Source: Chloroflexi bacterium AL-N1 (GTDB lineage Bacteria > Chloroflexota > Chloroflexia > Chloroflexales > Roseiflexaceae). From it: a stretch of DNA of 64,000 bases. How positions within the stretch are numbered: the first letter of the stretch is position 1; every line of letters begins with the position of its first letter. Under the pieces are notes generated by a model. That model did no database searches and was not told the origin of the DNA. It saw nothing but the letters and a program-made list of their open reading frames with translations. A program made the position numbers and the translations under genes. The stretch lies in contig WYDT01000004.1 in NCBI GenBank assembly GCA_013122435.1, forward strand, positions 310,001 to 374,000. The letters are read 5' to 3'. Positions 3,157-64,000 of this stretch are shown here, one piece after another.

Positions 3157-4827
3157 TTGTCTAATTCGCTTTCCAATCAGCAACAATCAGACCCTAAAGG
3201 TCTCACTTTAATTCGCGGTGCACAGGTGGTTGATGGAACAGGCAGCCCTTGGTTTTATAGTGATGTGGCAATCCAGGGAAACCACATTGCCGCGATCACT
3301 TCATCAGGACATATACCACCAGAACAGGCAAGCGAAATTATCGATGCTGCAGGGATGGTAGTATGCCCTGGGTTTATCGATATCCTCAGTCACTCGATTC
3401 TCCCACTGATGGTCGATGGGCGCTGCCTTTCTAAGATTATGCAGGGCGTAACCACCGAAATCATGGGCGAGTCTTGGACACCTGCGCCCTTTGGCGGTCT
3501 CATTAGCGATCCTTTCGGACATAGCCCCTATTCTCATCATATTGAGGAGTGGCAACAACGTGCCCAGACATGGCATCGTTTGCGAGACTGGTTGGATGCG
3601 ATGATTGAACATGGCGTAACACCAAACATTGGCACATTTCTTGGTGGTGGTACACTACGAGAGTATGCTAAGGGTCTGACGATGGGGAAAGCGTCACCGG
3701 ATGAACGAGCTACCATGGAGCACATAGCACGTGAAGCGATGGAGGACGGTGCTTTTGGTGTGTCATATGCACTGATCTACCCACCTGATGCCTATGTGGA
3801 AACAGACGAACTTATTGCAGTGTGCAAAGTGGTAGCCGAATATGGTGGCATCTATATTACACATTTACGATCTGAGGCAGATCGATTGGTTGAAAGTGTT
3901 GAAGAAGCGTTACAGATCGGAACCCAAGCGCATATTCCAGTAGAAATCTATCATCTTAAAGCCGCTGGAAAACGCAACTGGTGCAAGGTACCCGAAGTTA
4001 TCAAACTCATAGATAAGGCACGTGCTGAAGGACTTGACATCACTGCCGATATGTATCCATACATCGCTGCAGGAACCGGTCTCACCTCAGTTCTGCCACC
4101 ATGGGCTGAAGCAGATGGTAAACTCTTTAGTAATCTGCTTGATCCTCAGATGCGCGCAAAGATTCGTGCCGAAGTCTTAAACCCATCTGATGGCTGGGAA
4201 CCTCTGGCCGATTTATGCGGTATTGACGGGGTGATGGTTATTGGCATGAAACAGCCTGAAAATCAAGCGTATGTTGGCAAAAGACTCGACCAGATCGCAG
4301 CTGTACGCGGACAGGAATGGGTTGATACTGTCTTTGACCTGCTTCTTTCTGAACGCCAACGTATTAACACGATCTATTTTGCGATGCAGGAAGATAATCT
4401 CAAACTTCAGCTTCAACAACCCTGGATGAAGATTTCGACGGATGCAGGTGGGGTCGACCCTGACTGGGCTGCGGCGCTTGGCCCCTTCCATCCACGTGCC
4501 TACGGTACATATCCACGAGTGCTTGGTAAATATGTACGAGAAGAACAGGTTATTCCACTTGAAGATGCTATTCGTAAAATGAGTTCTGCTGTAGCTAATC
4601 GTTTGGGGTTACGTAATCGTGGACTGCTCCGACCAGGTTACTATGCCGATATGGTCATCTTTGATCCACAAACAATTGGCGACCGAGCCACATTCGAGGA
4701 GCCACATCAATTGGCAGTTGGGGTCCGTGATGTATGGGTGAATGGCGTACGAGCATTGGCAAATGGAAAACATACCGGGGCAACACCAGGGATGATTGTG
4801 AATGGACCAGGGGCCAACTATAGCTAG
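3157..4827 (+). CDS. D-aminoacylase-like amidohydrolase
   Basis: The 556-residue product belongs to the amidohydrolase superfamily near N-acyl-D-amino-acid deacylases, which hydrolyse N-acyl amino acids using one or two metals in a TIM barrel. The start is TTG 3157, with GGAG eight bases upstream. Visible landmarks are the N-terminal beta-sandwich strand (LIRGAQVVDGTGSPW), GMVVCPGFID, ITHLRSEAD, YHLKAAGKR, STDAGG and the C-terminal return strand (RGLLRPGYYADMVIFDP). The usual HxH metal motif after GFID is changed to ILSHS, and the Cys ligand region (normally GNCG) reads GESW. It therefore belongs to an atypical subfamily, and substrate and metal content are uncertain. It is the only intact gene of the left-hand catabolic region and may have served the same N-carbamoyl/N-acyl amino-acid pathway. 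Confidence 0.8.
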   Translation: MSNSLSNQQQSDPKGLTLIRGAQVVDGTGSPWFYSDVAIQGNHIAAITSSGHIPPEQASEIIDAAGMVVCPGFIDILSHSILPLMVDGRCLSKIMQGVTTEIMGESWTPAPFGGLISDPFGHSPYSHHIEEWQQRAQTWHRLRDWLDAMIEHGVTPNIGTFLGGGTLREYAKGLTMGKASPDERATMEHIAREAMEDGAFGVSYALIYPPDAYVETDELIAVCKVVAEYGGIYITHLRSEADRLVESVEEALQIGTQAHIPVEIYHLKAAGKRNWCKVPEVIKLIDKARAEGLDITADMYPYIAAGTGLTSVLPPWAEADGKLFSNLLDPQMRAKIRAEVLNPSDGWEPLADLCGIDGVMVIGMKQPENQAYVGKRLDQIAAVRGQEWVDTVFDLLLSERQRINTIYFAMQEDNLKLQLQQPWMKISTDAGGVDPDWAAALGPFHPRAYGTYPRVLGKYVREEQVIPLEDAIRKMSSAVANRLGLRNRGLLRPGYYADMVIFDPQTIGDRATFEEPHQLAVGVRDVWVNGVRALANGKHTGATPGMIVNGPGANYS

Positions 4828-4839
4828 GTTAAAAATACT

Positions 4840-4938
4840 CAGAGATTATAGAAGATCTTACCCACGCAGTAGAAGAATGGTGTTGTGAGTTCTCCCTATA
4901 ATCTCTGTATAGTGAACGGGGATTGTTGTACAATCCCC
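4840..4938. terminator. Two inverted repeats between convergent genes
   Basis: A perfect 12-bp inverted repeat (CAGAGATTATAG at 4840-4851, complement at 4896-4907) is followed by a tight 9-bp hairpin (GGGGATTGT at 4918-4926, TGT loop, complement at 4930-4938). They lie between the converging amidohydrolase and glycerate kinase genes and probably end transcription from both sides. Neither has a strong U-run on either strand. Confidence 0.55.
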
Positions 4939-5001
4939 CGATTGAAGCCTTGAAGGATGGTTTGTCTACGCTTAACGCTCCTTCTCTATGAAACACTCAG
5001 G

Positions 5002-6246
5002 TTATAAGTTATGTAGACCATGTGGTACATTGATTACTGCACGGCGAGGTATATAATGCTCAGTCTTCACAGGTATCGTAGCAACACTCTGACGTGCGAG
5101 TTGCTGACCAATTAAGACCATACGCATCATACGTTCGGCTGCCTGCTCAAGAAGAGGGCCTGCCTGAGTAATCGCTTCAGCAAGTGTACACGGCGCATTC
5201 AAAATACTTGCAAACGAGTCAATGCCATAATCAAAGTTAATGTCTGCGTCTTTGCCAATTGTGCCAGCCAGTGCAATCACAGGCAGTCCATACTGTTTCG
5301 CACGGCGAGCCACCTCGGCAGGAATTTTGCCGCGTGGCGTTTGGAAATCGATACCACCCTCAGCCGTAAAGACAATATCAGCCTGTTGCAGCAAGGTATC
5401 GATCTCGAGATATTGCATGACAATGTCATAACGGGGATGCAATGTGGCGCCGAGTAGTGCTTGTAATCCAGCACCAAGACCACCTGATGCACCACTCCCT
5501 GGAGCCTCATACACAGCGTGACCTGTGTCCTGCTCAATCACTGCGGCGTAGCAATCCAATGCGCTGGCAAGACGCTCAACGGTTTCAGGCGAGGCGCCTT
5601 TCTGGGGTCCAAAGACCCGCGCAACACCATTAGGGCCACACAATACGTTGTGCCAGTTACATGCCACATCAATCTGAACCTCATCCAATCGTGGATCACG
5701 GCCAGACATATCGATGCGGTCAAGGCACTCAAGTTCACCACCACCAAAGCCCAGATCCTGACCATATACGTCGAGTAACCGAATACCCAGCGCCTGAGCA
5801 GCACCCGCACCACCATCATTGGTGCCAGAGTCGCCACAACCAATGAGAATTCGTTGTGCACCAGCATCAAGGACCGCACGGATAAGTTCACCGACACCGT
5901 ACGTAGTTGTGATAAGAGGGTCACGTGAGTCACCAGGAACCAGTCGTAAACCTGCGGCGGCAGCCATCTCGAGTACAGCCGTCTTTGGTCCATTTCCACC
6001 CAAAATCCCAAAGTGTGATTGCACAGGCCGACCCACTGGCCCAGTAACGGTGAGATGATGTAACGTCCCGTCCGTCGCTGCAACTAATGCTTTGGTAAAA
6101 CCTTCACCACCATCAACGAGAGGAGCCTTTACAATACTTGCACTTGGCAAGGCATTCTGTATACCTTTGGCAATATGCTCCGCCGCTTCATCCGCTCCCA
6201 AACTTTCTTTGAAACCTGATGGTGCAATCACAACTTTGAGTGGCAT
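5002..6246 (-). CDS. Glycerate 2-kinase (GlxK/GarK type)
   Basis: This enzyme phosphorylates D-glycerate to 2-phosphoglycerate with ATP, feeding glyoxylate-derived carbon into glycolysis. The N-terminus VVIAPSGFKESLGADEAA is the signature of the class-I glycerate kinase family. PLVDGGEGFTKALV, IGCGDSGTNDGGAG, ACNWHNVLCGPNGVARVFGPQKGA and TAEGGIDFQTPRGK are the other conserved blocks. The length (414) is slightly above the usual ~380 because of a tail ending in GLHNL. The start ATG 6246 has AGGAG at the right distance. It is a lone gene on the minus strand, convergent with the amidohydrolase. A glycolate oxidase fusion elsewhere in the window (56520-59273) would supply the same C2/C3 route. 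Confidence 0.92.
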   Translation of the reverse strand: MPLKVVIAPSGFKESLGADEAAEHIAKGIQNALPSASIVKAPLVDGGEGFTKALVAATDGTLHHLTVTGPVGRPVQSHFGILGGNGPKTAVLEMAAAAGLRLVPGDSRDPLITTTYGVGELIRAVLDAGAQRILIGCGDSGTNDGGAGAAQALGIRLLDVYGQDLGFGGGELECLDRIDMSGRDPRLDEVQIDVACNWHNVLCGPNGVARVFGPQKGASPETVERLASALDCYAAVIEQDTGHAVYEAPGSGASGGLGAGLQALLGATLHPRYDIVMQYLEIDTLLQQADIVFTAEGGIDFQTPRGKIPAEVARRAKQYGLPVIALAGTIGKDADINFDYGIDSFASILNAPCTLAEAITQAGPLLEQAAERMMRMVLIGQQLARQSVATIPVKTEHYIPRRAVINVPHGLHNL

Positions 6247-6411
6247 TTTAGCGCTCCTTGTATCTTACAGTCCTAATAAAACGTTGTCCGGCTTAACAAA
6301 CTGTTATCATATATGTCTTGTTATAAAAGAGGGGAACGCCATTATAAAAATACATACAATACAAGCATTTTCTAAAAGTCATTGCAAAATGTCCATTTAG
6401 GTCATCATAAA

Positions 6412-6439
6412 GGGGAATGCCAGATAGCTAGGCACCCCC
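6412..6439 (-). terminator. Hairpin downstream of the PLP enzyme
   Basis: On the minus strand, GGGGGTGCC pairs with GGCATTCCCC across a 9-base loop and is followed by TTTATG. It lies about 30 bases past the stop of the PLP gene and fits a weak intrinsic terminator. Confidence 0.5.
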
Positions 6440-6468
6440 AAATCACACATGACACATTTGGTTAGCTA

Positions 6469-7617
6469 TTACACAAGTGCTTGCTCAATATCAGCAACAA
6501 GATCTTCCTCTTCTTCAATCCCCACTGAGAGACGCACTAATCCCGCAGGAACTTCAAGCGTTGATCCAGCAACACTGGCATGGGTCATCGCAGCAGGCAA
6601 CTCGATCAGGCTCTCTACACCACCCAGACTCTCCGCCAGCGTGAACAGCTTTGTACGCGTCACCATCTTGCGACCAGCCGTCTCACCACCCTGTAACACT
6701 AACGAGATCATCCCTCCAAAACCGTGCATTTGACGCTGTGCTAGTTCATATTGCGCGTGTGATGGCAAACCGGGATAAATCACTTGCTCCACTAATGGAT
6801 GCTCTTCCAGTAAACGCGCTATAGCAAGGGCATTTGCTTCATGAGCACGCATACGCACCGCAAGCGTCTTGAGTCCGCGCAACACCAACCAGCTATCGAA
6901 CGCACCAGGGACAGCCCCAGCAGCGTTTTGGAGAAACTTGAGCTGGGTGTAGAGCCCTTCATCTGCTACCACAACCGCACCACCAACCACATCACTATGC
7001 CCACCAATATACTTGGTGGTGCTATACAGCACTATATCGGCACCAAGATCAAGTGGCCGTTGAAAATACGGTGATGCAAAGGTATTGTCAACCACGACAC
7101 GAATACCACGTGGTTTGGCAATCTGTGTAATCGTTGCGATATCTGCTAATTTCAACAGGGGATTGGTTGGCGACTCCAACCAGATCAGTTTCGTTTCTGG
7201 GCGAATAGCCGCCGCCACTTGGTCACTGTTGCTGGTATTCACATAGTCAAAGGTAAGACCATGACGGGTGAAAACCTTATCAAATAAGCGATACGTTCCT
7301 CCATAGACATCATCACCACAAATAATGTGATCCCCAGCCGAAAGCATGAGCAGTACTGTTGTCTCAGCAGCTAATCCAGAGGCAAATGTCACTGCATAGT
7401 GACCATTGTCCAGCGCCGCCAGTGCTTCTTCAAGTGCCGTGCGGGTCGGGTTGTCGGTGCGGGCATATTCGTAACCCTTATGCACTCCTATATCGTCCTG
7501 TGCAAACGTCGATGTTTGATAGATCGGCACAACCACCGCACCAGTAGCTGGCTCTGGGTCTTGGCCTACATGAATAGCGCGAGTCGCAAATCCATACTGC
7601 GTGCCATTGTTCTTCAT
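6469..7617 (-). CDS. metB: Cys/Met-metabolism PLP enzyme (cystathionine gamma-synthase/lyase)
   Basis: The 382-residue protein has the full signature of the trans-sulfuration PLP family: TRAIHVGQDPEPATGAVV at the start, YEYARTDNPTR (phosphate contacts from the partner subunit), FASGLAAE, SPTNPLL, VVDNTFASPY and the Schiff-base lysine in STTKYIGGHSDVVGG. The C-terminal LAESLGGVESLIELPAAMTH and LVRLSVGIE are also present. The cytosolic tetramer either makes cystathionine from an O-acylhomoserine and cysteine or cleaves it; the sequence alone does not separate synthase from lyase. Start ATG 7617 is preceded by GAGGG. It is a single-gene unit with its own upstream region. Confidence 0.9.
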   Translation of the reverse strand: MKNNGTQYGFATRAIHVGQDPEPATGAVVVPIYQTSTFAQDDIGVHKGYEYARTDNPTRTALEEALAALDNGHYAVTFASGLAAETTVLLMLSAGDHIICGDDVYGGTYRLFDKVFTRHGLTFDYVNTSNSDQVAAAIRPETKLIWLESPTNPLLKLADIATITQIAKPRGIRVVVDNTFASPYFQRPLDLGADIVLYSTTKYIGGHSDVVGGAVVVADEGLYTQLKFLQNAAGAVPGAFDSWLVLRGLKTLAVRMRAHEANALAIARLLEEHPLVEQVIYPGLPSHAQYELAQRQMHGFGGMISLVLQGGETAGRKMVTRTKLFTLAESLGGVESLIELPAAMTHASVAGSTLEVPAGLVRLSVGIEEEEDLVADIEQALV

Positions 7618-7956
7618 AGTGTTCCCTCATTCAACGTGGTTCTCACCATACAAAAATAGCATGATCTACTTTCAATTTGTAAGTCTGATTATAGCATCCG
7701 TAATCATGACAAAGCATAGTCCCACACATCCTTATCACTCTTTATCGTACCACAACAACTTTCCTGAGCAATCTGACATCAAGAATCACTAGACGATACT
7801 ATCGTTTAGTGGTATGCTTGAATGAGTTCACCATATGGTGTAATAAGACCAATTCCCTCATAACAAAGACTATGTTAGTACTAACCTAATGAGAAGGTTT
7901 GTAACTTCCTCAAAGACCATGGATGTACATAATAAAACAAACATCGAGTCTGGACT
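7618..7956. promoter_or_regulatory. Divergent promoter region with two small palindromes
   Basis: This 339-base, AT-rich stretch separates the divergent PLP gene and histidine kinase. It contains the palindrome ACGATA-C-TATCGT (7793-7805) and GTTAGTACTAAC (7874-7885), either of which could be an operator. No SAM riboswitch or T-box core was recognised upstream of the sulfur-metabolism gene, and no gene is visible. Confidence 0.35.
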
Positions 7957-9621
7957 ATGAACACGACACGCAGACGCTTCCAATATTTTATTGTGCCTGG
8001 TGTCATCATTTTTCTCGTTATTTCTAGTTGGTATTTTGCCTTTTATCAGCGCGGAGCATTGATCCAATCAACAATCTCAGCATATCAGCAGACTCAACTT
8101 GAGACCGTTCGCGCTATAGCCCGCAATGTCGAAAGCTATGTATCTAATCAAATCGAACTACGCGGAGATGGTGATATTGTCAAGATTGAACAAGAGATTT
8201 TTGAGCGTTTTGTGGTACCAGTACGTATTTTAGAGAATGGTGATGTCTGGATTTACTCACCAGATCAAGTCGTCTTCGAAGGTAGTCCTGACTTTCCCGA
8301 TGAGTACCAGGGAAGGAGCATGGCTGAAATTTTCGACTTACAAAGGGAGGCAGGAGCGAGTAATTATGAAGAGATGGTTGACGACGTTACAAACACACGT
8401 GAAGGGACAGGATTGTATATCTGGCTCCCTGAAAAAGGGCGTGAGGTAGCCGCGTGGACCCCTATCAGTGTGAACCAGTATCGCTGGACGATTGGCATTT
8501 CAACACCGCTCCCAGAAATTCTGGTATCGACAGGCGCCGCCTTGCAGATTCGGAACACGTTTATACTGATGTCTATCGTAACAGTGATAGCAGGGGGCAT
8601 GTTGCTGATATGGACACAAAGCGAGACCAAACGTACACGTATCGAACAATCACTTCAGAGTGTGGTAATGGAACTCGAACAATATAAAACCTACCTTGAA
8701 AAACAGGTAGACACGCGCACTGCTGAGCTGGTTCAGAAGAATTCCGAACTCGAAGAAGAGATCAGAGAGCGCAAACGAACTGAGGCAGCACTTATTCATG
8801 CCAAAGAAGCTGCTGAGGTTGCAAATCAGGCCAAGAGCACCTTCCTGGCCAACATGAGCCACGAATTGCGAACACCATTAAGCGCAATCCTGGGATATAA
8901 CGACTTGATACACGTCCAGGCTGAACGGAATGGGTATCAAGATCTCTTGCCAGACACTGAACAAGTGACCATAGCAGGTAATCATCTACTTACCCTGATC
9001 AGTGATCTACTGGATATTTCCCGAATCGAGGCAGGTAAACTGCAATTACAGCTATCGACATTTGAACTTACGCCGCTGATCGAAAGTGTTGTTGCCACTA
9101 TTCGTCCACTTATGGAGAAAAATACCAACACTTTCAATGTTACTTGTGTCAACGATTTAGGCGTCATTTATACCGATCAGACCAAGTTGCAACAAATTCT
9201 CTTAAACTTGTTAAGTAATGCCGCCAAATTCACCGACCATGGCACCGTTACATTCAAGATCTACAAGACCTATTACGGCGTAACTGGCACACATACCTCT
9301 TCTCTACGACAAGAATCAGGAGCTTCTGCATGTAGTTCTCCACATATCGTTTTTGAAGTAAAAGATACAGGTATTGGGATGGAGCCAGAACACATACAAT
9401 ATATTTTTGAAGCATTTCATCAAAATACATCGGCTGGCATGGACATCCATAGTGGAACTGGCTTAGGTCTCGCTATCAGTCACCATTTCAGTACCATGAT
9501 GGGCGGTAGCATTACGGTGGAGAGCACCCCTGGTCGTGGATCAACATTTACATTTTATATGCCCGTCGCTGGCACACAGACGACAACACACACAGAACCT
9601 CTCGTATCGCAGACTGAATAA
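7957..9621 (+). CDS. Membrane sensor histidine kinase with extracellular Cache-like domain
   Basis: The 554-residue protein starts with a transmembrane helix (~15-33), then an extracellular region to ~195 with the Cache-like features VWIYSPDQVVFEGSP and WTPISVNQYRWTIGIS. A second membrane helix (~205-222) leads into a coiled-coil linker (~230-285, YLEKQVDTRTAELVQKNSEL). The HisKA domain has FLANMSHELRTPLSAILGY with the phospho-acceptor His302. The ATPase domain has NLLSNAAKF (N box), DTGIGMEP (G1), FEAFHQ and GTGLGLAIS (G2). There is no HAMP and no receiver. It probably signals to a separate receiver, of which the nearest (9966-10331) lies convergent downstream. The stimulus is unknown. Confidence 0.9.
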   Translation: MNTTRRRFQYFIVPGVIIFLVISSWYFAFYQRGALIQSTISAYQQTQLETVRAIARNVESYVSNQIELRGDGDIVKIEQEIFERFVVPVRILENGDVWIYSPDQVVFEGSPDFPDEYQGRSMAEIFDLQREAGASNYEEMVDDVTNTREGTGLYIWLPEKGREVAAWTPISVNQYRWTIGISTPLPEILVSTGAALQIRNTFILMSIVTVIAGGMLLIWTQSETKRTRIEQSLQSVVMELEQYKTYLEKQVDTRTAELVQKNSELEEEIRERKRTEAALIHAKEAAEVANQAKSTFLANMSHELRTPLSAILGYNDLIHVQAERNGYQDLLPDTEQVTIAGNHLLTLISDLLDISRIEAGKLQLQLSTFELTPLIESVVATIRPLMEKNTNTFNVTCVNDLGVIYTDQTKLQQILLNLLSNAAKFTDHGTVTFKIYKTYYGVTGTHTSSLRQESGASACSSPHIVFEVKDTGIGMEPEHIQYIFEAFHQNTSAGMDIHSGTGLGLAISHHFSTMMGGSITVESTPGRGSTFTFYMPVAGTQTTTHTEPLVSQTE

Positions 9622-9965
9622 CATACTCCTCTATTGATTGCGGCATACAATGAAGATCTGTACAAACCTTGATTCACGACATACGTGTACTGCTTCAACA
9701 GGTAAGCAATCAACACAACAGTTCAGCTCTGGAAATATACATGAACATTATGCGTAATCAGAGATCAGCCAACCAGCAAATTGACGCATGGATCGTCTAA
9801 CAACTCTCACGACACCGTACAGTGTTTTAGCCTTTAGTCGTTTCCCCTCAAACACAGCGAGGCGATACAAGTATCGTGACATGGCAAAATCAGTAGCGAG
9901 TCAGAGGTTCCATAACTTCATGAGGAAATATTCCGCTCCTGGAGATGTGGAAGAAACAATGGTCT
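9622..9965. other. Intergenic region between convergent signalling genes
   Basis: This 344-base stretch contains no convincing gene. A 62-codon frame (9788-9976) lacks a ribosome-binding site and family features, and overlaps the end of the response regulator. No strong terminator hairpin was found. Confidence 0.5.
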
Positions 9966-10331
9966 TTACTGCTTAAGATATATACGGATTTTATTTAACA
10001 AACGCGCAAAATCAATCGGTTTAGCCTCGTAATCATCACATCCGGCTTCGAGGCTCTTGGATCGATCTTCGCTAAATGCATACGCCGTCAACGCAATGAT
10101 GGGAATGCCACGTGTCTCATCGGCTGTTTTGATACGACGTGTTGCCTGCCAGCCATCCATCACTGGTAAACGCATATCCATTAAAATAAGATCAGGTATC
10201 TCTGATCGCGCTAAACCAACCGCACGTGCGCCATCTTCAGCTTTGACTATCTTATACCCCTCAAATTCTAAACGACGTGCAATCATATCACGATTCTGAT
10301 CATCATCTTCTACAACAAGAATAGTAGGCAT
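9966..10331 (-). CDS. Stand-alone receiver (CheY/Spo0F-like response regulator)
   Basis: This single-domain receiver of 121 residues has a complete active site: acidic pair in VVEDDDQNRDM, phospho-acceptor Asp52 in ILMDMRLPVMDGW, Thr82 in ALTAYA and Lys104 in EAKP. ATG 10331 is chosen over an upstream ATG because AGGAG lies just before it and the protein then starts directly at beta-1 (MPTILVVEDD). There is no output domain, so it acts by protein contact or as a phosphorelay intermediate. It lies 56 bases downstream of the hybrid kinase in the same direction, so the two are probably co-transcribed. It may receive the phosphate that the kinase's own degenerate receiver cannot. Confidence 0.92.
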   Translation of the reverse strand: MPTILVVEDDDQNRDMIARRLEFEGYKIVKAEDGARAVGLARSEIPDLILMDMRLPVMDGWQATRRIKTADETRGIPIIALTAYAFSEDRSKSLEAGCDDYEAKPIDFARLLNKIRIYLKQ

Positions 10332-10387
10332 GATGAAGCTCCTATATAGCAATAATTACGCTGTTCCCTTGTTATTATATACCGCAT

Positions 10388-12976
10388 TCATGAGTTTGAT
10401 GTTGGAGACATGGTAACTTCCAGTGCATCACCATATCCACTATTGCGGTAGCTCTGTAGTATGCTCCGAAACTGCTCAGGGTTTACAGGATTGGGAAGAG
10501 AATGGCTTACGCCTGACACTGCATAATACAGGTGTTGAGCAATCACAATCACAGGCAGTTCGGCACGGGACGAATAGGACTGCAACTTGTGTATCGTATC
10601 TTGCTCCATTGTCTCTGATGACTCGACAGCTATTACAATAAGGTTCGGTTCTACATCAGCAATGAGGCGTTCTCCATCAGCAACATCGGAAACCACCACT
10701 ACCTCATACTGTTCATCGCGCAACAACTCAGTAACAAAACTCGCTGACTCATCCTCCTCTATTACTAACGCAAGAGGAAGGCTCTTTTGCATATCAGGTC
10801 CCTGCATTGATGCATGTAATGGATCATCGTCTTCATGTATCTGAACATGGACAGGGATAGAAACATATACAGTAGTTCCTTGTCCTTCCACACTCGTTAG
10901 ACGGATAGTACCACCCATCGCCTGACATAAATATTTACTGAGCGCCAACCCAAGGCCAGTGCCATCGTATGTGTTTTTTCTGGCACTGTTTGACTGAACA
11001 AATGGTGTAAAAAGCTGTTGTTGCTGGTCGTCACTTATACCAACACCTGTATCAGCTACAGTGAGATGGATAGCCTCGTTTTCGGCGGGCCCGGTACGCT
11101 GCGCCTGTAAACAAATGCCTCCTTTATGCGTGAACTTGGTCGCGTTTGCAAGCAGGTTGAGGAGCACCTGTCGTACTTTCAGGGGATCCGTATATATGGT
11201 CCCAAGATCATTTAGTATCTCAATCTCCAACTGATTGTGTTGTTGTTGAATAAGTGGATTGATGGTGTCAACCACATCGCTGATCAACTCTGACATTTGA
11301 AACGGGTCTGGCATGATGTCGAGTTTACCAGCCTCAATTTTTGACAGGTCAAGCACGTTGTTGATTAATGTCATAAGATGTACGCTGGCACCACGAATCT
11401 TATCAAGGTCCGGCAACAGCTCGGTATAGTCACGTACATCGGCTTCGCGTCGCACCAGGTCAGCATATCCAATCACAGCCGTGAGCGGTGTCCGTAATTC
11501 ATGGCTCATATGCGATAAGAACGAACTTTTGGCTTTATTCGCTGCTTCCGCGACTTCACGAGCTTTACGATCTCCAATGTCACGGCTGGTCAACACAATA
11601 CCCTTCACCAATGGATCATCAAGCAAATTCGTGACGCTCGTCTCTATATCTAGCCAGGTACCTTTCTGGTGTCGTATGCGACAAACAAACGGTTCTACTT
11701 CTGGAGATCGCTCAAGAATAGCAGATAATACATCTTGCAGCATTGGACGATCCGCAGGATGGACTAATGCACCGGCTAAAGTACCCGTCAATTCTTCAGG
11801 GGTATAACCGTAAATATGGGTGGTTGAGGGGGTAATGTAGCGAATTGTACCATCAACATCTACAATCGCAATAATATCTGAGGCATTTTGTACCAGTGAA
11901 ACAAAACGGGCCTCATTATCACGCGATAGTTTTTCAGCTAACAATGTTTCATTGTAGCGCATCACGATCATCTGCCGCGCAACAACCAGAGCGGTGATCA
12001 GAATAACGCCAACCATGACACCGTTAACGGGTGTCTCACCTCTGCTAAATGATACAAACAACAGTAAACCACCACTGAAAATTACCGCAGCATAGGGAAG
12101 CCAATACCGTGATCCACCAATGGGGAAGCGTTCAACATTGGTATCACTGAGTGTCTGTTGGTTTGCCTGGCAATACTGTACATGAGCACCAATAGATATG
12201 AGAATAATAGATAACATCCAAGTAAGATCAATAAGATTTCCTGATTGGTAATTATCTTGTAATGTGAGATATAAAAAGAATAAATCTGCGCTCGCATAGA
12301 GGAGTAATCCCGATCCAACCCATAAAAGGACCTGACGTTGGGGAGCGGTGAGATGACTCAGCACCACCGCTATCACACTGAAGATAAGCAGAATGTCACC
12401 AATAGGTGATATGAACGCCAGAGCGATTTCAGATAACGGCTTGTCTAATGGTGCGATGATCGGTTGCAGGATAAAAAACCAGGCAAATAACCCCACCGCA
12501 AAAACCACTGTCAGCGCATCAAGCCAGAATGTGGTGCCACCAGGATAGCCGCGTTTCGTCGGCAACCATAAGACCCCTATGGTCATTAATGGAAAAGGGA
12601 CACCAAGAACTAAGATCACCCACGGCAAAATCGCGTCAAGCCCCAATCTGCGCTCGAGATAGGCTAAAGGCACTAACCCAACCGCAGGAACCACACATGA
12701 TAAAGCAACACACAACCAAGCCTGACGTATATGACGAGGGAAGGTTGACTTATAAACTACACGTAATGAAAGCACTGCCAAGATAATAATTACCGGAACG
12801 AAGGCAACAGACGCGATGAATGTGGTCAGCTCAGATCCACCCCATTCAAAGAAGAGCCAGAAATGAAATATCAGCGCATAGACACCTAGGCCAATGATGG
12901 TAATACCACCCCAATCACGCAACAATACGTGGATTATCTGTTTCCAGGATATTGGGAAGAAGTGCTGAGTCGCCAT
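10388..12976 (-). CDS. Multi-pass membrane PAS hybrid histidine kinase with degenerate receiver
   Basis: The 862-residue protein opens with a polytopic membrane sensor of about eight to ten helices (residues ~15-345), resembling MASE-type integral sensors. A PAS domain follows (~360-480; FVSLVQNASDIIAIVD, YGYTPEELTG, ERSPEVEPFVCRIRH). HisKA has FLSHMSHELRTPLTAVIGYA with His492. HATPase has NLLANATKF, DTGVGISDD and GTGLGLALS. The C-terminal ~115 residues have receiver-like alternation (ALVIEEDESASFVTELL, LPVIVIAQH, PNPVNPEQF), but the phospho-acceptor position in NLIVIAVESSET is not Asp and the conserved Lys-Pro is Asn-Pro. This receiver is therefore probably not phosphorylated. The intact receiver gene immediately downstream is the likely partner. 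Confidence 0.88.
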   Translation of the reverse strand: MATQHFFPISWKQIIHVLLRDWGGITIIGLGVYALIFHFWLFFEWGGSELTTFIASVAFVPVIIILAVLSLRVVYKSTFPRHIRQAWLCVALSCVVPAVGLVPLAYLERRLGLDAILPWVILVLGVPFPLMTIGVLWLPTKRGYPGGTTFWLDALTVVFAVGLFAWFFILQPIIAPLDKPLSEIALAFISPIGDILLIFSVIAVVLSHLTAPQRQVLLWVGSGLLLYASADLFFLYLTLQDNYQSGNLIDLTWMLSIILISIGAHVQYCQANQQTLSDTNVERFPIGGSRYWLPYAAVIFSGGLLLFVSFSRGETPVNGVMVGVILITALVVARQMIVMRYNETLLAEKLSRDNEARFVSLVQNASDIIAIVDVDGTIRYITPSTTHIYGYTPEELTGTLAGALVHPADRPMLQDVLSAILERSPEVEPFVCRIRHQKGTWLDIETSVTNLLDDPLVKGIVLTSRDIGDRKAREVAEAANKAKSSFLSHMSHELRTPLTAVIGYADLVRREADVRDYTELLPDLDKIRGASVHLMTLINNVLDLSKIEAGKLDIMPDPFQMSELISDVVDTINPLIQQQHNQLEIEILNDLGTIYTDPLKVRQVLLNLLANATKFTHKGGICLQAQRTGPAENEAIHLTVADTGVGISDDQQQQLFTPFVQSNSARKNTYDGTGLGLALSKYLCQAMGGTIRLTSVEGQGTTVYVSIPVHVQIHEDDDPLHASMQGPDMQKSLPLALVIEEDESASFVTELLRDEQYEVVVVSDVADGERLIADVEPNLIVIAVESSETMEQDTIHKLQSYSSRAELPVIVIAQHLYYAVSGVSHSLPNPVNPEQFRSILQSYRNSGYGDALEVTMSPTSNS

Positions 12977-13296
12977 ATAGTCGCTACATATCTAGGTTGC
13001 AATGACACAATACGTACAAGGTACCGTACCAGAAACACACAAACCCCTTAAGGCACTGTTAGACAGTACAACTACCTATACTTTGGCCCATAAAGATATG
13101 GTACTTAACATTATCTGTGAGTAAGATAATTTAAAACATCCACCAGTAGGATAAGTATATACTGATTATCAAATGCTGTACAGTGTAAAAACATTCATCT
13201 AAAAAGATGCGTGAGGAGAAATGAATAGTAACTCTACAATAGTACAATCTAATGTGGTAAGACAACGATATGGCAGCAAAATGCGGCTTTTACCCG
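12977..13296. other. Intergenic region upstream of the hybrid kinase
   Basis: An AT-rich 320-base stretch that must hold the promoter of the minus-strand hybrid kinase and the end of the acylphosphatase unit. No gene, clear promoter boxes or strong hairpin was recognised. Confidence 0.4.
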
Positions 13297-13605
13297 CTAC
13301 CAGACAACAGAAAATGTTTTTTCTTGTCCCGTAGGCTGTTCCCACTGTACATCAACGTGGTCTACCCGTGCAAATGATGGCCCACGATAACACCAACTCA
13401 CGACGTGTTGCACAGCTGAACGAGGGCCTTCAAAGACAGCCTCGACTCGACCATCATCCAGATTACGTACCCATCCACATACACCTTGACTACGCGCCTG
13501 TTCACGAGTGGCCGCACGAAAGTTAACACCCTGTACCCGCCCACTAACACATACCTGAACACGTGTATGTGTTAGCTGTGACGATGTATCGATACTATGA
13601 GACAG
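13297..13605 (-). CDS. acyP: Acylphosphatase, with no canonical start codon
   Basis: The minus-strand frame encodes a clear acylphosphatase, a ~90-residue cytosolic enzyme that hydrolyses acyl phosphates. VCVSGRVQGVNFRAATREQA holds the phosphate-binding loop and catalytic Arg. GWVRNLDDGRVEAVFEG holds the catalytic Asn. The end is VQWEQPTGQEKTFSVVW. The frame is open back to the PhoU stop codon (13654-13656) but contains no ATG, GTG or TTG before the conserved domain. A CTG at 13603-13605, preceded by an AAAGG about 10 bases upstream, is the best start and gives ~102 residues. Because the frame is the same as phoU, stop-codon readthrough or a lost start are alternatives. The conserved core itself shows no lesion. 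Confidence 0.75.
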   Translation of the reverse strand: MSHSIDTSSQLTHTRVQVCVSGRVQGVNFRAATREQARSQGVCGWVRNLDDGRVEAVFEGPRSAVQHVVSWCYRGPSFARVDHVDVQWEQPTGQEKTFSVVW

Positions 13606-13653
13606 AACGTACCAACCTTTCTTATCAACCTGTTCTAAGGCATCTCTACATGG

Positions 13654-14313
13654 CTAACGATTGAGTTCCTCTGCGTGGTTGGTAGCGATAAAGATAACCC
13701 GTTCGGCAATGTTCGTTGATCGATCCGCCAGACGTTCGAGCGTATGGGCAATATCCAGCAAGTTAATCACATTATCTAACGTGTGAGTCCCACTACGCGC
13801 AACATCAAGCAGCGCAGCCGTAACCTCATCTTCAAGCTCATCGACCAACTCATCTTCCATAGCTAAAGAACGAGCCATGTCAACATCAACACGGACAAAG
13901 GCATCCAGACTGGTATGAAGCATCTCTTGAGCCAACTCACCCATACGAAAGAGTTTCCCCGGTGTTTCAATCAATACTGGTGCTTGTAGACAACGAATAA
14001 CACGCTTGGAAATACCTTTTGCATAATCACCAGCACGCTCTAGCTCACCCGCAATCGCAATCGTTGCATTCAGCGTGCGTAAATCGGTCCCCACCACAGG
14101 TTGCTGGGTCGCCAGAATTTCGAGAACCACCTCCTCAATTGCAGTACGTGCCTCATCAATCTCGCGATCTTCTTGAATAACCTGTTGTGCTCTGCTACTA
14201 TCCCATTCCGATAACGCACGCATGGAATGGGCCAATGCATGTTCGACACGGCTGCCCATTCGTAATAGATCAACGTTAACAGATTGTAATTGGCGTATAT
14301 AATGGTTCCGCAT
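13654..14313 (-). CDS. phoU: Phosphate-signalling regulator PhoU
   Basis: PhoU links the Pst phosphate transporter to the PhoR kinase and keeps phosphate uptake in check. The 219 residues contain two PhoU three-helix repeats: NVDLLRMGSRVEHAL with IQEDREIDEARTAIEEVVL, and the conserved IAGELERAGDYAKGISKRV; the second repeat ends with DIAHTLERLADRSTNIAERV, with the metal-binding E-x3-D-x2-N-x2-E pattern. ATG 14313 (MRNHYIRQLQ) is preferred over longer options because GAGGG lies eight bases upstream and PhoU proteins normally begin this way. No pst genes are nearby in the window. Downstream in the same frame and strand is the acylphosphatase. Confidence 0.93.
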   Translation of the reverse strand: MRNHYIRQLQSVNVDLLRMGSRVEHALAHSMRALSEWDSSRAQQVIQEDREIDEARTAIEEVVLEILATQQPVVGTDLRTLNATIAIAGELERAGDYAKGISKRVIRCLQAPVLIETPGKLFRMGELAQEMLHTSLDAFVRVDVDMARSLAMEDELVDELEDEVTAALLDVARSGTHTLDNVINLLDIAHTLERLADRSTNIAERVIFIATNHAEELNR

Positions 14314-60220: not shown

Positions 60221-60301
60221 GTTAGTGAATGTGCAACGCAATCTAGATATGGAACGTCATATCTGTGTAAAGTGTTTGATATTTTCCATAAGGAGGAGTA
60301 T

Positions 60302-60799
60302 ATGCGTTATGTGATGCATGAGAAACTATTGGCCTTTGGCGATGATTATGTCATTAAAGATGAGCGTGGTGAGGCCACTTTTTTTGTCGATGGGAGAGCC
60401 TTTAGTATTGGAGACAAATTAGCCTTCAAAGATATGTCAGGTCAGGAGCTAGCCTTTATCAAGCAAAAGATTTTGTCATTTGGCCCGACCTATGAGATTT
60501 ATCGAGAAGGGAATCTGGTAGCGGTCGTGAAGAAAGCCCTGTTTACACTCTTTCGTGCGCGTTTTAGCGTCGATGTTCCTGGCCCGGATGATCTTGAGGC
60601 GCAAGGAGCCTTCTTCGATCATGAGTATGCGTTCTCACGCCATGGGAAGACGGTCGCGCAGGTGTCCAAACGGTGGTTTTCATTCCGCGATACCTATGGC
60701 ATCGAGATCGCCGATGGGGAGGACGACGTACTCATTCTCGCCAGTGCCGTGGTGATTGATCAGGTTATCCATGAAGAATCCAGGCAAGATGATGATTGA
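60302..60799 (+). CDS. LURP-one-related (LOR/YxjI-like) protein
   Basis: The 165-residue protein has the beta-barrel repeat pattern of the LURP-one family, a tubby-like fold: KLLAFGDDYVIKDERGEATF, DGRAFSIGDKLAFKDMSGQE, FGPTYEIYREGNLVAVVKKA, HEYAFSRHGKTVAQVSKRWF and DTYGIEIADGEDDVLILASA. The role of bacterial members is unknown. ATG 60302 is chosen because AAGGAGG precedes it by six bases; an in-frame upstream codon is less likely. It lies 80 bases after the dps terminator, so it has its own promoter. Confidence 0.85.
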   Translation: MRYVMHEKLLAFGDDYVIKDERGEATFFVDGRAFSIGDKLAFKDMSGQELAFIKQKILSFGPTYEIYREGNLVAVVKKALFTLFRARFSVDVPGPDDLEAQGAFFDHEYAFSRHGKTVAQVSKRWFSFRDTYGIEIADGEDDVLILASAVVIDQVIHEESRQDDD

Positions 60800-60838: not shown

Positions 60839-62737
60839 CTAAGTTAATCTCTTATGTTGTGAAGATAGCACTGACAGACTACTACCTGCGCCCTCTGAAC
60901 ATATCGCTGAGGCGTTCCCATGCTCATAGCCTGATGCTTGTAGGCGATAGAGCCGTGCATATATGCCATTGCGTTCCATCAGGGTTTCGTGGGTACCATA
61001 TTCAGTAATCTGCCCATTATCAAGCACTGCGATGAGATGGGCCATCCGCACCGTATTAAAGCGGTGAGCAATCAGCAAACCAGTACGTCCGGCAAGTAAT
61101 GCACGAAACTGCATATGCGTTTCATACTCAGCTTCAGCATCTAATGCTGAAGTGGGCTCGTCAAGGATCAAAATATTGGCATTCCGCATAAACATACGGG
61201 CAGTAGCAACTTTTTGCCATTGTCCTCCAGAAAGATCAAACCCTTCGCCTTCTTCAGCAAACATCCGGCTTACCTCGGTTTCATACCCTTTTGGTAAAGC
61301 AGCGATCATATCGTCAATATGTGCCTGTTGTGCCACCTGCTGAATATAATTCTGATCGTGAATTCTGGTTAAGTCCCCCAAGCCAATATTTTCACGGACA
61401 GTCAGATCATAGCGCATAAAATCCTGAAAGATTGCGCCCATCCGTGCACGGAGTTCCATTACCTCAAACTGACGAATATCGATCCCATCCCATAAAATCT
61501 GACCTTCGGTTGGATCATACATTCGTGTCAATAGTTTCACCAGTGTGGTTTTTCCGGCACCATTGACACCCACCAATGCAATACATTGACCTACTGGTAT
61601 GGTTAGATTGATGTCACGTAATATCCAGGGCAAATCATCGTGATATCTAAATGAGACATTGCGAAATTCAATTCCCTGTTGCAGGGGTAGCGTGGCTCGT
61701 GGATTTTTGGGTGCTGGCAAAATCGATGATAATTGCTGGAGAGCTTGAAAAGAACTATAGAATAACACACTCTCAAAGAGACCACTGACACCAGCTACTG
61801 CTCCCTGAAGAGCACCTTGTGTAGAGCCTACCACATTTACATACAGTGCAATATCTCCCATGGTTAATTGACCATTCAATCCAGCCAACGCAACCCATCC
61901 GAACGCAACACTGGCCAATAAACTGGAACATAGTCCTAATAAAGCCTCCCAGCGTAACTCTCGCTGATTCAGATGGCGTTCTGCGGTATGAATTCGACGA
62001 GTTGTCACACAAAGTTTTTCAAGAAAAAAGTCCCCCAGATCGAATAGTCGAATTTCTTTTGCAGATGGTGCTCCAGCAAGCATCGAGCTATAAAAGAGCT
62101 TGCGCCGTTCATCAAGGCTGTACGCAAACACCATTTGCAGTTGTTGCTGGACTAAACGTAAATCAATAAAGAGTCTCGGTATAACCGAAAGAATAATCAG
62201 TCCTGCCAAGAGAAAATGGAATGATATAAGCGTCCCGATGAAACTTATCAGCGCCACGAGATTTTCCAGAAGTCGTGTTAATGCAGGTAATGTTTCTTGT
62301 GCACTACTAAGGGCACCCTGCTCTGCAAGACGAATGGTATCGTAAATCTGCGGGTTCTCAAACGGTGCTAATCCTGACAGATCATTGATTTTGGTATAAA
62401 CATCCCGCTGAATTTGCAATTCTAGCCGTCGTCCTAATTCACTCTGTAGATAGGTATTTACTGCAGTCAAGAGTGCCGCGGTTACAGTTATGAGTGCTTG
62501 GGCTATCAGAAGTACATAAAGCATTTCTGGTGTTACTGATACTGGATCGGTAAGCCGTAGTGAAAGCCAGTCAAACAGCATCTTGAGAATAAGCGCATTG
62601 GCAAGCGGTACAAGACCCTGAAGTATCGTGATGCATAAAGAACCAACGGAAGCTAATGGATACACACGGCAGACCAATGCAAGAATTTGGAAAATAGTAA
62701 CAACAAACTTTTGTGACGTTTCGGGTTTAGCGACCAT
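60839..62737 (-). CDS. ABC exporter, fused permease-ATPase half transporter
   Basis: The 632-residue protein has an ABC type-I exporter membrane domain (~20-330; six helices, TKINDLSGLAPFENPQIYD, SLDERRKLFYSSMLAGAPSA) and an ATPase domain: Walker A GVNGAGKTTLVKLL (~390-397), Q-loop IFQDFMRYDLTVRENIGL, signature LSGGQWQKVATARM, Walker B ILILDEPTSALD and H-loop LLIAHRFNTVR. There is no peptidase C39 domain. The ATPase resembles those of peptide or lipid exporters. ATG 62737 is preceded by AAGGA. It is divergent from the ATP-grasp ligase gene and shares its control region, so export of the ligase product is plausible (inference). A single half-transporter would homodimerise. Confidence 0.9.
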   Translation of the reverse strand: MVAKPETSQKFVVTIFQILALVCRVYPLASVGSLCITILQGLVPLANALILKMLFDWLSLRLTDPVSVTPEMLYVLLIAQALITVTAALLTAVNTYLQSELGRRLELQIQRDVYTKINDLSGLAPFENPQIYDTIRLAEQGALSSAQETLPALTRLLENLVALISFIGTLISFHFLLAGLIILSVIPRLFIDLRLVQQQLQMVFAYSLDERRKLFYSSMLAGAPSAKEIRLFDLGDFFLEKLCVTTRRIHTAERHLNQRELRWEALLGLCSSLLASVAFGWVALAGLNGQLTMGDIALYVNVVGSTQGALQGAVAGVSGLFESVLFYSSFQALQQLSSILPAPKNPRATLPLQQGIEFRNVSFRYHDDLPWILRDINLTIPVGQCIALVGVNGAGKTTLVKLLTRMYDPTEGQILWDGIDIRQFEVMELRARMGAIFQDFMRYDLTVRENIGLGDLTRIHDQNYIQQVAQQAHIDDMIAALPKGYETEVSRMFAEEGEGFDLSGGQWQKVATARMFMRNANILILDEPTSALDAEAEYETHMQFRALLAGRTGLLIAHRFNTVRMAHLIAVLDNGQITEYGTHETLMERNGIYARLYRLQASGYEHGNASAICSEGAGSSLSVLSSQHKRLT

Positions 62738-63109
62738 ACACTATGTTCCTTCAGGCAAGACAGATGGGAGGAATCATAAGAAAGTCCTATCTTTGATCTA
62801 TCTCGCCTGGAGATGATTGGCCTCAATCTATTCCGCACAATCATGCTGAACAACAGAATCAGGCAATAGTATGATTTATAACCTCTCAGTACTGAGGATC
62901 GATACAGCCTGTGAATAAACGAGTATAAACAACGATGAACAAAAACAACCTAGTCTAACGCCACATATGTAAGATAAAAACGAATGCGGGACAGTTCCTC
63001 TTGTTGTGCATAAGACAAAAGACAAGGACACAACACAGATACAGATAATACTTGTACTATCTCTGGTTCTTTACAGGACACCTGTATATACAAAGCAGGA
63101 GGTATGCTT
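62738..63109. promoter_or_regulatory. Divergent control region between ABC exporter and ATP-grasp gene
   Basis: This 372-base stretch has no convincing small gene; in particular no peptide with a leader-core layout was found on either strand. CTCAGTACTGAG (62885-62896) is a 12-base palindrome with the same AGTACT core as the palindrome at 7874-7885. Promoters for both flanking genes are expected here. Confidence 0.4.
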
Positions 63110-64000
63110 ATGAATAAGCAACAGATCATTATTGTGACCCAACAAAACGATCCACATGCCGATGATGTGATCATGAAGTTACGTGAATTGGATCATGAAC
63201 CTATTCGCTTGAATACCGATGACGTTCCGATACATACACTGTTGACATTCGGCATCAGCAATCAAACCAAATCCTGGAATGGTGCAATTACCATTCAGAC
63301 AAATGGTCGTGTCATTGAACCTGATCATATTCAATCTATCTGGTGGCGTCGACCTGGTGCATTTGCATTACCCAAGGAGTTATCAGCACGTGAACGTATA
63401 TTTGCCCAATCAGAGATTGAGCAGGTGCTTATGGGGTTATGGGCATCAGTGGATTGTTACTGGATGAGCCATCCTGACCACATTCGACATGCTTCCTGGA
63501 AAGAGCATCAACTACAACGCGCTGCACAGATAGGCTTCGACATTCCACGAACGCTTATTACGAATGATGCTGCTGAGGCACGTGATTTTTATGAAATATG
63601 TCAGGAGCAGATGATTTACAAAGTGCTCAGTGATCCGTATTTAGGTGCACGTGAACTTGCGTTGCAAGGCGTTGATGAATCAGTCGAGGCTATCGCAACA
63701 AGTACTACATTAATCTCAGAGGAAGAACTCACCTACCTTGACACAATCCGACTTGCTCCATGCCAGTTTCAGGAATACATTCCTAAAAAAACCGAACTGC
63801 GTGTTACCGTTATTGGAGATACGGTATTTGCGGTTGAAATTGACTCACAAGCTCATGAGGAATCACGCATCGATTGGCGAGCGCTGCCCCCCGAAGATCT
63901 CTCATGGCGACAGGTACACTTACCATCAGCACTGGTTGATAAATGTCTCGCCTTTGTCCACAACTATCATCTGAACTATAGTGCGATGGACTTCATTGTA
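63110..64000 (+). CDS. MvdC/MvdD-like ATP-grasp ligase (3' partial)
   Basis: The visible 297 residues show the pre-ATP-grasp and start of the ATP-grasp domain of RiPP-maturase-type ligases such as microviridin MvdC/MvdD. QIIIVTQQNDPHADDVIMKL opens the first domain and SIWWRRPGAFALP ends it. WMSHPDHIRHASWKEHQLQR and AAQIGFDIPRTLITND match the family's substrate-binding helix; IYKVLSDPYLGA, FQEYIPKKTELRVTVIGDTV and FAVEIDSQ match the nucleotide-binding strands. Such enzymes join acidic side chains to Ser, Thr or Lys to make ester or amide rings (graspetides), though some members have other substrates. ATG 63110 has AGGAGG seven bases upstream; an in-frame ATG at 63104 is too close to it. The gene runs past the window. 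Confidence 0.85.
   Translation, partial: MNKQQIIIVTQQNDPHADDVIMKLRELDHEPIRLNTDDVPIHTLLTFGISNQTKSWNGAITIQTNGRVIEPDHIQSIWWRRPGAFALPKELSARERIFAQSEIEQVLMGLWASVDCYWMSHPDHIRHASWKEHQLQRAAQIGFDIPRTLITNDAAEARDFYEICQEQMIYKVLSDPYLGARELALQGVDESVEAIATSTTLISEEELTYLDTIRLAPCQFQEYIPKKTELRVTVIGDTVFAVEIDSQAHEESRIDWRALPPEDLSWRQVHLPSALVDKCLAFVHNYHLNYSAMDFIV

Follow-up and report, generated by a model that had tools for sequence, protein, structure and literature searches.

A recurring ATP-grasp, MauE and TlpA-like redoxin cassette with cysteine-rich small open reading frames in a Chloroflexota genome

Graspetides such as microviridin and plesiocin are associated with ATP-grasp ligases (MvdC/MvdD, CdnC and PsnB) that carry an MvdD pre-grasp domain, and in their precursors a variable core follows a leader with a conserved hydrophobic motif (PMC8939145). 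Microviridin leaders bind to the middle subdomain of the ATP-grasp protein, and peptidases of several families are found beside some ATP-grasps (PMC8939145). For graspetide group 9, a 2026 survey reports 'a serine proteinase' in more than half of the clusters, given without a family name in the sections on that group (PMC13097080). Here we compare with these systems a cluster at the right end of a 64,000-nucleotide stretch of Chloroflexi bacterium AL-N1 (the window, bases 310001-374000 of contig C5), where a gene for an ATP-binding cassette (ABC) exporter and a gene for an ATP-grasp ligase diverge. The contig was then read rightward in locus L009, in which adding 60000 to a position gives the window-extended position.

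The cluster has a ligase and a leader of the graspetide type; however, it cannot be called a plain graspetide cluster. The two genes belong to a recurring cassette that contains an ATP-grasp, an SDH/ClpP-like protein, MauE, a TlpA-like redoxin, usually an ABC exporter, and small open reading frames (ORFs) rich in Cys. The gene content, the common leader, the Cys-rich cores and the ligase residues kept or lost are read directly from the sequence. On this basis we consider it fairly probable that the products of the cassette are exported peptides whose closures are mainly disulfides. The ATP-grasp is predicted to be a dock for the leader, and the window copy may also introduce one or two ester or amide links between side chains.

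Leaders and cores of the precursor-like ORFs

The initial annotation had suggested that a missing precursor may lie in the sequence to the right of the window, and two precursor-like ORFs are indeed found there (Table 1). The two can be aligned to one another and to the ORF ahead of the second ATP-grasp gene of the genome, and their leader, F[GA]F...YD...QVW, is also found in graspetide-like precursors. All nine ORFs of the five cassettes with both MauE and TlpA have in common a hydrophobic stretch (mostly LF[GA]F-like), Y[DN]...Q, and a W that is followed by small residues ahead of the first Cys. The same leader type occurs where MauE and TlpA were not found, in L014 (a metagenome-assembled genome (MAG) of Opitutae), L078 (a Deinococcus plasmid) and L115, and the YDP..Q part of it in L060 and L061. 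None of the scanned precursor-like ORFs reached the cut-off of a Pfam or NCBIfam family.

An acidic, Thr/Ser-rich core had been expected, which is not what the two ORFs carry: each core has four Cys, only two Asp/Glu, one of them at or adjoining the C-terminus, and four to six Thr/Ser, with no repeated motif seen. Across the five MauE and TlpA loci the Cys counts of the nine cores are 4, 4, 4, 8, 8, 8, 6, 5 and 6, whereas five relatives in which MauE and TlpA were not found have 1, 0, 1, 1 and 0, in cores rich in Thr, Ser and Asp. At the level of loci, MauE-TlpA therefore goes with Cys-rich cores in 5/5 against 0/5 (Fisher p 0.008, with no correction for ancestry, and with the absence at L060 being uncertain because its contig is short).

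These cores bear on whether this is an ordinary graspetide cluster, in which the ligase forms the main ester or amide rings and the Cys, MauE and redoxin are secondary. We regard this as unlikely, although Thr and Asp residues stand at the end of the L010 core and L115 offers a close parallel: beside an ATP-grasp 57% identical to the window ligase, it has a precursor-like ORF with the same leader type (L115:10737-11078) and a TxTDGYG-repeat core, a likely cross-link pattern, and is probably a classic graspetide with repeats from the same order. The two Asp/Glu per window core, and the way that MauE and TlpA track Cys-rich cores, argue against it.

Counted from the first Cys after the leader, the number of Cys is even in 8/9 cassette ORFs and in 19/19 and 3/3 ORFs of two other MauE-linked kinds (30/31 overall); as the choice of the 31 ORFs was in part made by eye and the ORFs are related, so that they are not independent, a binomial value of 1.5e-8 overstates the case. 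The precursors of the L077 cassette keep 8/8 Cys in a public relative identical at 78/99 positions and 6/6 in another at 74/85, which is weak evidence that would fit disulfides.

Another possibility is that the cores are thiol peptides, used for metal binding or for thioester or thioether chemistry, and that MauE and TlpA keep the thiols reduced. TlpA/ResA-type redoxins include reductants, the redoxin matches ResA weakly (NF002854, 7.5e-05, below cut-off), and the L059 core has five Cys. The even Cys number in nearly all MauE-linked ORFs counts against such peptides, and MauE has been speculated to aid disulfide formation in methylamine dehydrogenase (PMC7794033); this explanation is thus, in our judgement, quite unlikely.

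MauE and the redoxin are not restricted to ATP-grasp cassettes. The genome has ten MauE matches above cut-off, three in ATP-grasp cassettes, and five of the other seven are near Cys-rich small ORFs. Two of these loci, L143 (G000:C3:265000-284500; 3633-9863) and L147 (G000:C2:40500-60000; 8970-13974), are free of ATP-grasp and contain MauE, TlpA and an ABC exporter 56-57% identical to that of the window, with five and three ORFs, respectively, that have an amphipathic leader and a core of 6-8 Cys; several of these ORFs have C..W...GCC and a later R.C. At L142 (8202-9835), L144 (8147-9832) and L148 (5382-6380, with the MauE stretch taken from the genome MauE search, not from the locus listing), the small ORFs near MauE/TlpA carry 10-16 Cys and a Tat-like RR signal. 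They had no NCBIfam family above cut-off, but bring to mind the small subunit of methylamine dehydrogenase. A MauE match is also present in 18 of the 47 genomes of the class to which genome G352, the source of one further ATP-grasp cassette, belongs. Ten of 15 fetched MauE loci of this class were checked; seven (L089-L091 and L093-L096) share a kind of ORF with 6-10 Cys, and three (L087, L088 and L092) have no clear Cys-rich ORF. The 6-10-Cys ORFs have an amphipathic leader and are beside MauE and TlpA, mostly with an ABC exporter too, and four of them are in tandem at L093 (10723-12340).

Taken together, these loci and the even Cys numbers of the MauE-linked ORFs point to disulfide closures and to a common oxidation module. 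The ATP-grasp cassette would then be one of three front ends that feed this module.

Residues kept and lost in the ligases

Seven residues (K173, E224, K228, R233, D296, E309 and N311), whose roles we take from ATP-grasp enzymes in general, are all present in the ligases of the window, L010, L059 and L014, and are intact in 126 of 149 aligned ATP-grasp rows. In the L077 ligase only E224 and E309 are kept (K173R, K228I, R233Y, D296T and N311D), and in the L068 ligase only E224 (K173R, K228A, R233T, D296Q, E309A and N311D). Changes at K173 or R233 are limited to seven rows, those of L077, L068, P0131-P0134 and the partial P0135; P0132 and P0133, public relatives of the L077 ligase (87-90% identical), have the same replacements except for M at 228 in P0132. 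The L077 and L068 ligases form one clade (support 100/100) on a long branch of the tree, which leaves the common origin of the three intact MauE-linked ligases (L009, L010 and L059) undecided. The picture is complicated by the fact that Cys-rich cassettes are not the only setting in which ATP-grasp residues are missing: P0042 (55% identical to the window ligase) has N296, K309 and D311 by replacement, the annotated ORF of the Deinococcus L078 ligase (L078:9001-9894), beside a Cys-free core, stops before 296/309/311, and the L064 and L049 ligases have D for E309, with E224 varying in other rows as well.

The losses are unevenly spread. Of the columns that at least 97% of 124 relatives conserve, L077 and L068 kept 20/21 and 19/21 in the N-terminal domain, 9/12 and 8/12 in the middle, and 20/33 and 19/33 in the catalytic half. 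The model of the L077 ligase has a predicted local distance difference test score of 85.8, and its best matches are MdnC and AMdnB (TM 0.73-0.81). As the residues are lost, the N-terminal domain is kept and the model matches these synthetases, the two ligases have kept the fold and probably lost catalysis. Given how microviridin leaders bind, a docking role for the cassette ATP-grasp is plausible. It could be that a graspetide synthetase lineage turned into a non-catalytic leader dock: a pseudo-ATP-grasp in two cassettes would keep its N-terminal domain, lose its catalytic residues and serve a new kind of leader-directed ribosomally synthesised and post-translationally modified peptide (RiPP) with MauE-TlpA disulfides, with the window cluster as an intermediate. 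We offer this as a tentative proposal, slightly short of what we would ourselves expect to hold.

For the window copy, a ring-forming system had been suggested by the initial annotation. The intact residues make ring formation by this ligase possible, and they also speak for an ordinary graspetide cluster. However, ring formation is probably not the main closure. Both the make-up of the cores and the loss of conserved residues in L077 and L068, where the remaining cassette persists, weaken the plain graspetide reading.

At the opposite end, the window ATP-grasp too could be a leader receptor or chaperone only, making no bond. This would fit the persistence of the L077 and L068 cassettes with a ligase without the conserved K, R, D and N residues, as well as the few acceptors in the window cores. 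None of the seven residues is changed in the copies of the window, L010 and L059, which suggests that activity has been kept there, and we consider a role of this sort in the window very unlikely.

Under the disulfide reading, the steps may be as follows. The leader (F[GA]F...YD...Q.W) would bind the ATP-grasp, and the intact window ligase may join an Asp to one of Thr, Ser or Lys. Cleavage in the small-residue stretch immediately ahead of the first Cys could then come from the SDH-family protease, the exporter, for which no C39 peptidase domain was listed, would carry the core out, and MauE and the TlpA-like redoxin would oxidise the cysteines on the outer face.

Several observations count against this reading. 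The five cassettes with MauE, TlpA and ATP-grasp all come from three genomes, and the chemistry of their products is deduced from the genes. L014 has the SDH-like gene without MauE or TlpA, and no convincing Cys-rich ORF was found at L145 (at a contig end) or L146 (where MauE has an internal stop). In the window cluster, 1.1 kb and a change of strand separate the precursors from the redoxin gene, so co-expression would have to be assumed. The known reductants among such redoxins, the odd Cys number in L059 and the choice of the 31 ORFs weigh on the same side.

Gene order and distribution

Table 1. Features of the window cluster and its continuation to the right
Feature	Position	Strand	Basis
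ABC exporter, 632 aa	60839-62737	-	ORF and PF00005 3.4e-33
Intergenic region between divergent starts, 366 bp	62738-63103	.	ORF map
ATP-grasp, graspetide-synthetase type, 342 aa	63104-64132 (L009:3104-4132)	+	ORF, Pfam, NCBIfam and structure matches
SDH/ClpP-like predicted proteinase	L009:4212-5120	+	PF01972 above cut-off and predicted ClpP-like fold
MauE	L009:5173-5724	+	PF07291 85.2 bits, cut-off 27
TlpA/MauD-like redoxin	L009:5737-6357	+	PF08534 36.1 bits, cut-off 26.6; CxxC = CGAC
Precursor-like ORF 1, 77 aa, 4 Cys in core	67491-67724 (L009:7491-7724)	-	Shine-Dalgarno site, precursor alignment
Precursor-like ORF 2, 78 aa, 4 Cys in core	67903-68139 (L009:7903-8139)	-	Shine-Dalgarno site, precursor alignment
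BTAD-AAA-TPR regulator adjoining the cassette	L009:8326-12339	-	

The ligase, the last 132 bases of whose gene lie beyond the window end at 64000, had been described as an ATP-grasp of the graspetide-maturase type. This is borne out by PF21068, the MvdD pre-ATP-grasp domain (9.4e-15, 55.2 bits, cut-off 27), and by its closest solved structures (CdnC, 7mgv, 2.6e-45, followed by 5ig9 (MdnC), 5ig8 (MdnB) and 7m4s (AMdnB)). The ligase also recurs with an exporter. The label MvdD-like holds as far as relatedness goes; MvdD proper is rejected, as TIGR04184 gives 229.1 bits, below the cut-off of 475. TIGR04187 (SAV_5884), the best NCBIfam model, gives 257.9 bits.

The exporter and the ligase had also been said to share a promoter region. 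Their genes do diverge, with a ribosome-site-like stretch ahead of each start, but a promoter scan of the region between the starts gave one match against 1.9 expected, not above chance, so a shared promoter is unproven. No C39 peptidase domain was among the Pfam matches listed for the exporter. To the left of the exporter is a LURP-one-related protein (PF04525 3.7e-20; window 60272-60799), with no link to the cassette seen.

On the strand of the ligase, the SDH/ClpP-like, MauE and redoxin genes follow with gaps of 79, 52 and 12 bases; they had not been foreseen, and five cassettes combine them with Cys-rich cores. The SDH-like protein missed the equivalog cut-off of NF047768 (71.3 of 250 bits), and its sequence had no informative match among solved structures, so the fold was predicted instead; S86, D110 and H211 are invariant in 7/7 and are putatively catalytic. 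The redoxin missed the MauD equivalog TIGR02661 (24.6 of 188.6 bits). Across the five cassettes the TlpA CxxC and the MauE CxCFG are each present in 5/5. Transposase-like debris was recognised by eye between the redoxin gene and the precursors (window-extended 66699-67119, L009:6699-7119), and likewise between MauE and the precursor in L010 (7942-8265).

A second ATP-grasp gene had been expected nearby; the genome search found none adjoining the window ligase, and two paralogous cassettes elsewhere. The genome therefore has three ATP-grasp cassettes (the window with L009, L010 and L077), and there is one each in G352 and G180. In L010, TlpA and MauE are on one strand and the precursor, ATP-grasp, ABC exporter, SDH and a thioesterase on the other, the thioesterase at the end of the cassette (L010:12810-13652, PF00975 6.2e-41). 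In L077 the order is precursor, ATP-grasp, ABC exporter, SDH, MauE and TlpA, then three precursors on the opposite strand, a layout that matches the right part of the window cluster. A fourth SDH-like gene, 49% identical to the L010 copy, is located after a piece of an ABC gene in L153 (G000:C2:454500-474000; 8295-10202), a stretch without ATP-grasp or MauE hits.

A precursor profile, A2, was built from eleven precursors. With all 141 candidates of this genome scored, it found seven intact ORFs, all inside the three cassettes, and no orphan precursors elsewhere; four stops interrupt an eighth match (E 0.009). Among 400 sampled Chloroflexota genomes it found only these seven plus a single ORF in each of G180 and G352, where it adjoins the same cassette; because A2 includes the nine cassette ORFs and scoring was limited to the top 13 candidates of each genome, this shows rarity, not independent new members. 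The G180 ligase and precursor are equal to proteins of a Ktedonobacteraceae MAG (P0134 and P0127), and G352 has the same family code.

The view that Chloroflexota examples are scarce was too strong, since 38 of the 400 genomes, the present one included, have an ATP-grasp match at E 0.001. A TIGR04187-type match was found in one of 26 genomes of its own family, this one, by a loose search that was positive in 7 of 14 control genomes; the lone match fits acquisition from outside. A scan of genome contigs with a single-sequence query gave one relative, in the Opitutae MAG, and the best rows of plasmid searches were 42% for the ligase (Deinococcus) and 28% for the SDH-like protein. The Deinococcus plasmid locus, the only plasmid locus opened, had neither MauE nor TlpA. 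Within 6 kb of the ATP-grasp, the 46 loci with fetched DNA (32 of them with at least 3 kb on both sides) have SDH in seven, MauE in six and TlpA in five. Every MauE locus has SDH, and the six include L052, where MauE is a mere fragment beside a cut-down ATP-grasp.

Meaning and comparison with known systems

If the disulfide reading is true, it would explain what MauE-linked Cys-rich small ORFs are for and show how graspetide-type leaders carry wholly different cores. It would bear on whether ATP-grasp macrocyclases lose catalysis yet persist as leader receptors, and the cassettes would be a source of leader-guided bacterial disulfide peptides. Among the ORFs counted, the genome has seven such precursor-like ORFs, eight of a second kind and three with a Tat-like signal.

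Among the titles and abstract openings searched, with most subscription papers outside the search, none joined an ATP-grasp with MauE, a graspetide with disulfides or Cys-richness, a pseudoenzyme with an ATP-grasp or a leader peptide, or MauE with TlpA or with Cys-rich or precursor peptides. Table 1 of Makarova 2022 (PMC8939145) has 18 families linked to graspetide ATP-grasps, and SDH, MauE and TlpA are not among them; nor do MauE, SDH, TlpA or Chloroflex occur in its main text. MauE, redoxin and SDH have no occurrence in the main text of the group 9 survey (PMC13097080), and the window ligase scores below the TIGR04187 cut-off of 350.

The decRiPPter families of Streptomyces are similar in that MauE, once also with MauD, accompanies precursors of at least eight Cys; mauE is in three candidate families, with ATP-grasp families reported separately (PMC7794033). 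In the parts of that paper on the mauE families, no ATP-grasp of the present kind and no SDH are described with them. Methylamine dehydrogenase maturation (background in PMC7794033) likewise links MauE and a MauD-like redoxin to a Cys-rich exported protein, whereas the linked ORF here is a small leader-bearing peptide; our mau search covered MauE only. Stryphnines are sponge knottins whose fold is joined by a side-chain ester between Ser and Glu, but they differ in origin, and the sections of PMC13418204 on them describe no ATP-grasp cluster.

From the graspetides the present cassettes differ in their Cys-rich, acid-poor cores, in the SDH, MauE and TlpA that come after the ligase, and in two synthetases with lost residues. 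If the lost-catalysis reading holds, they are possibly a new class.

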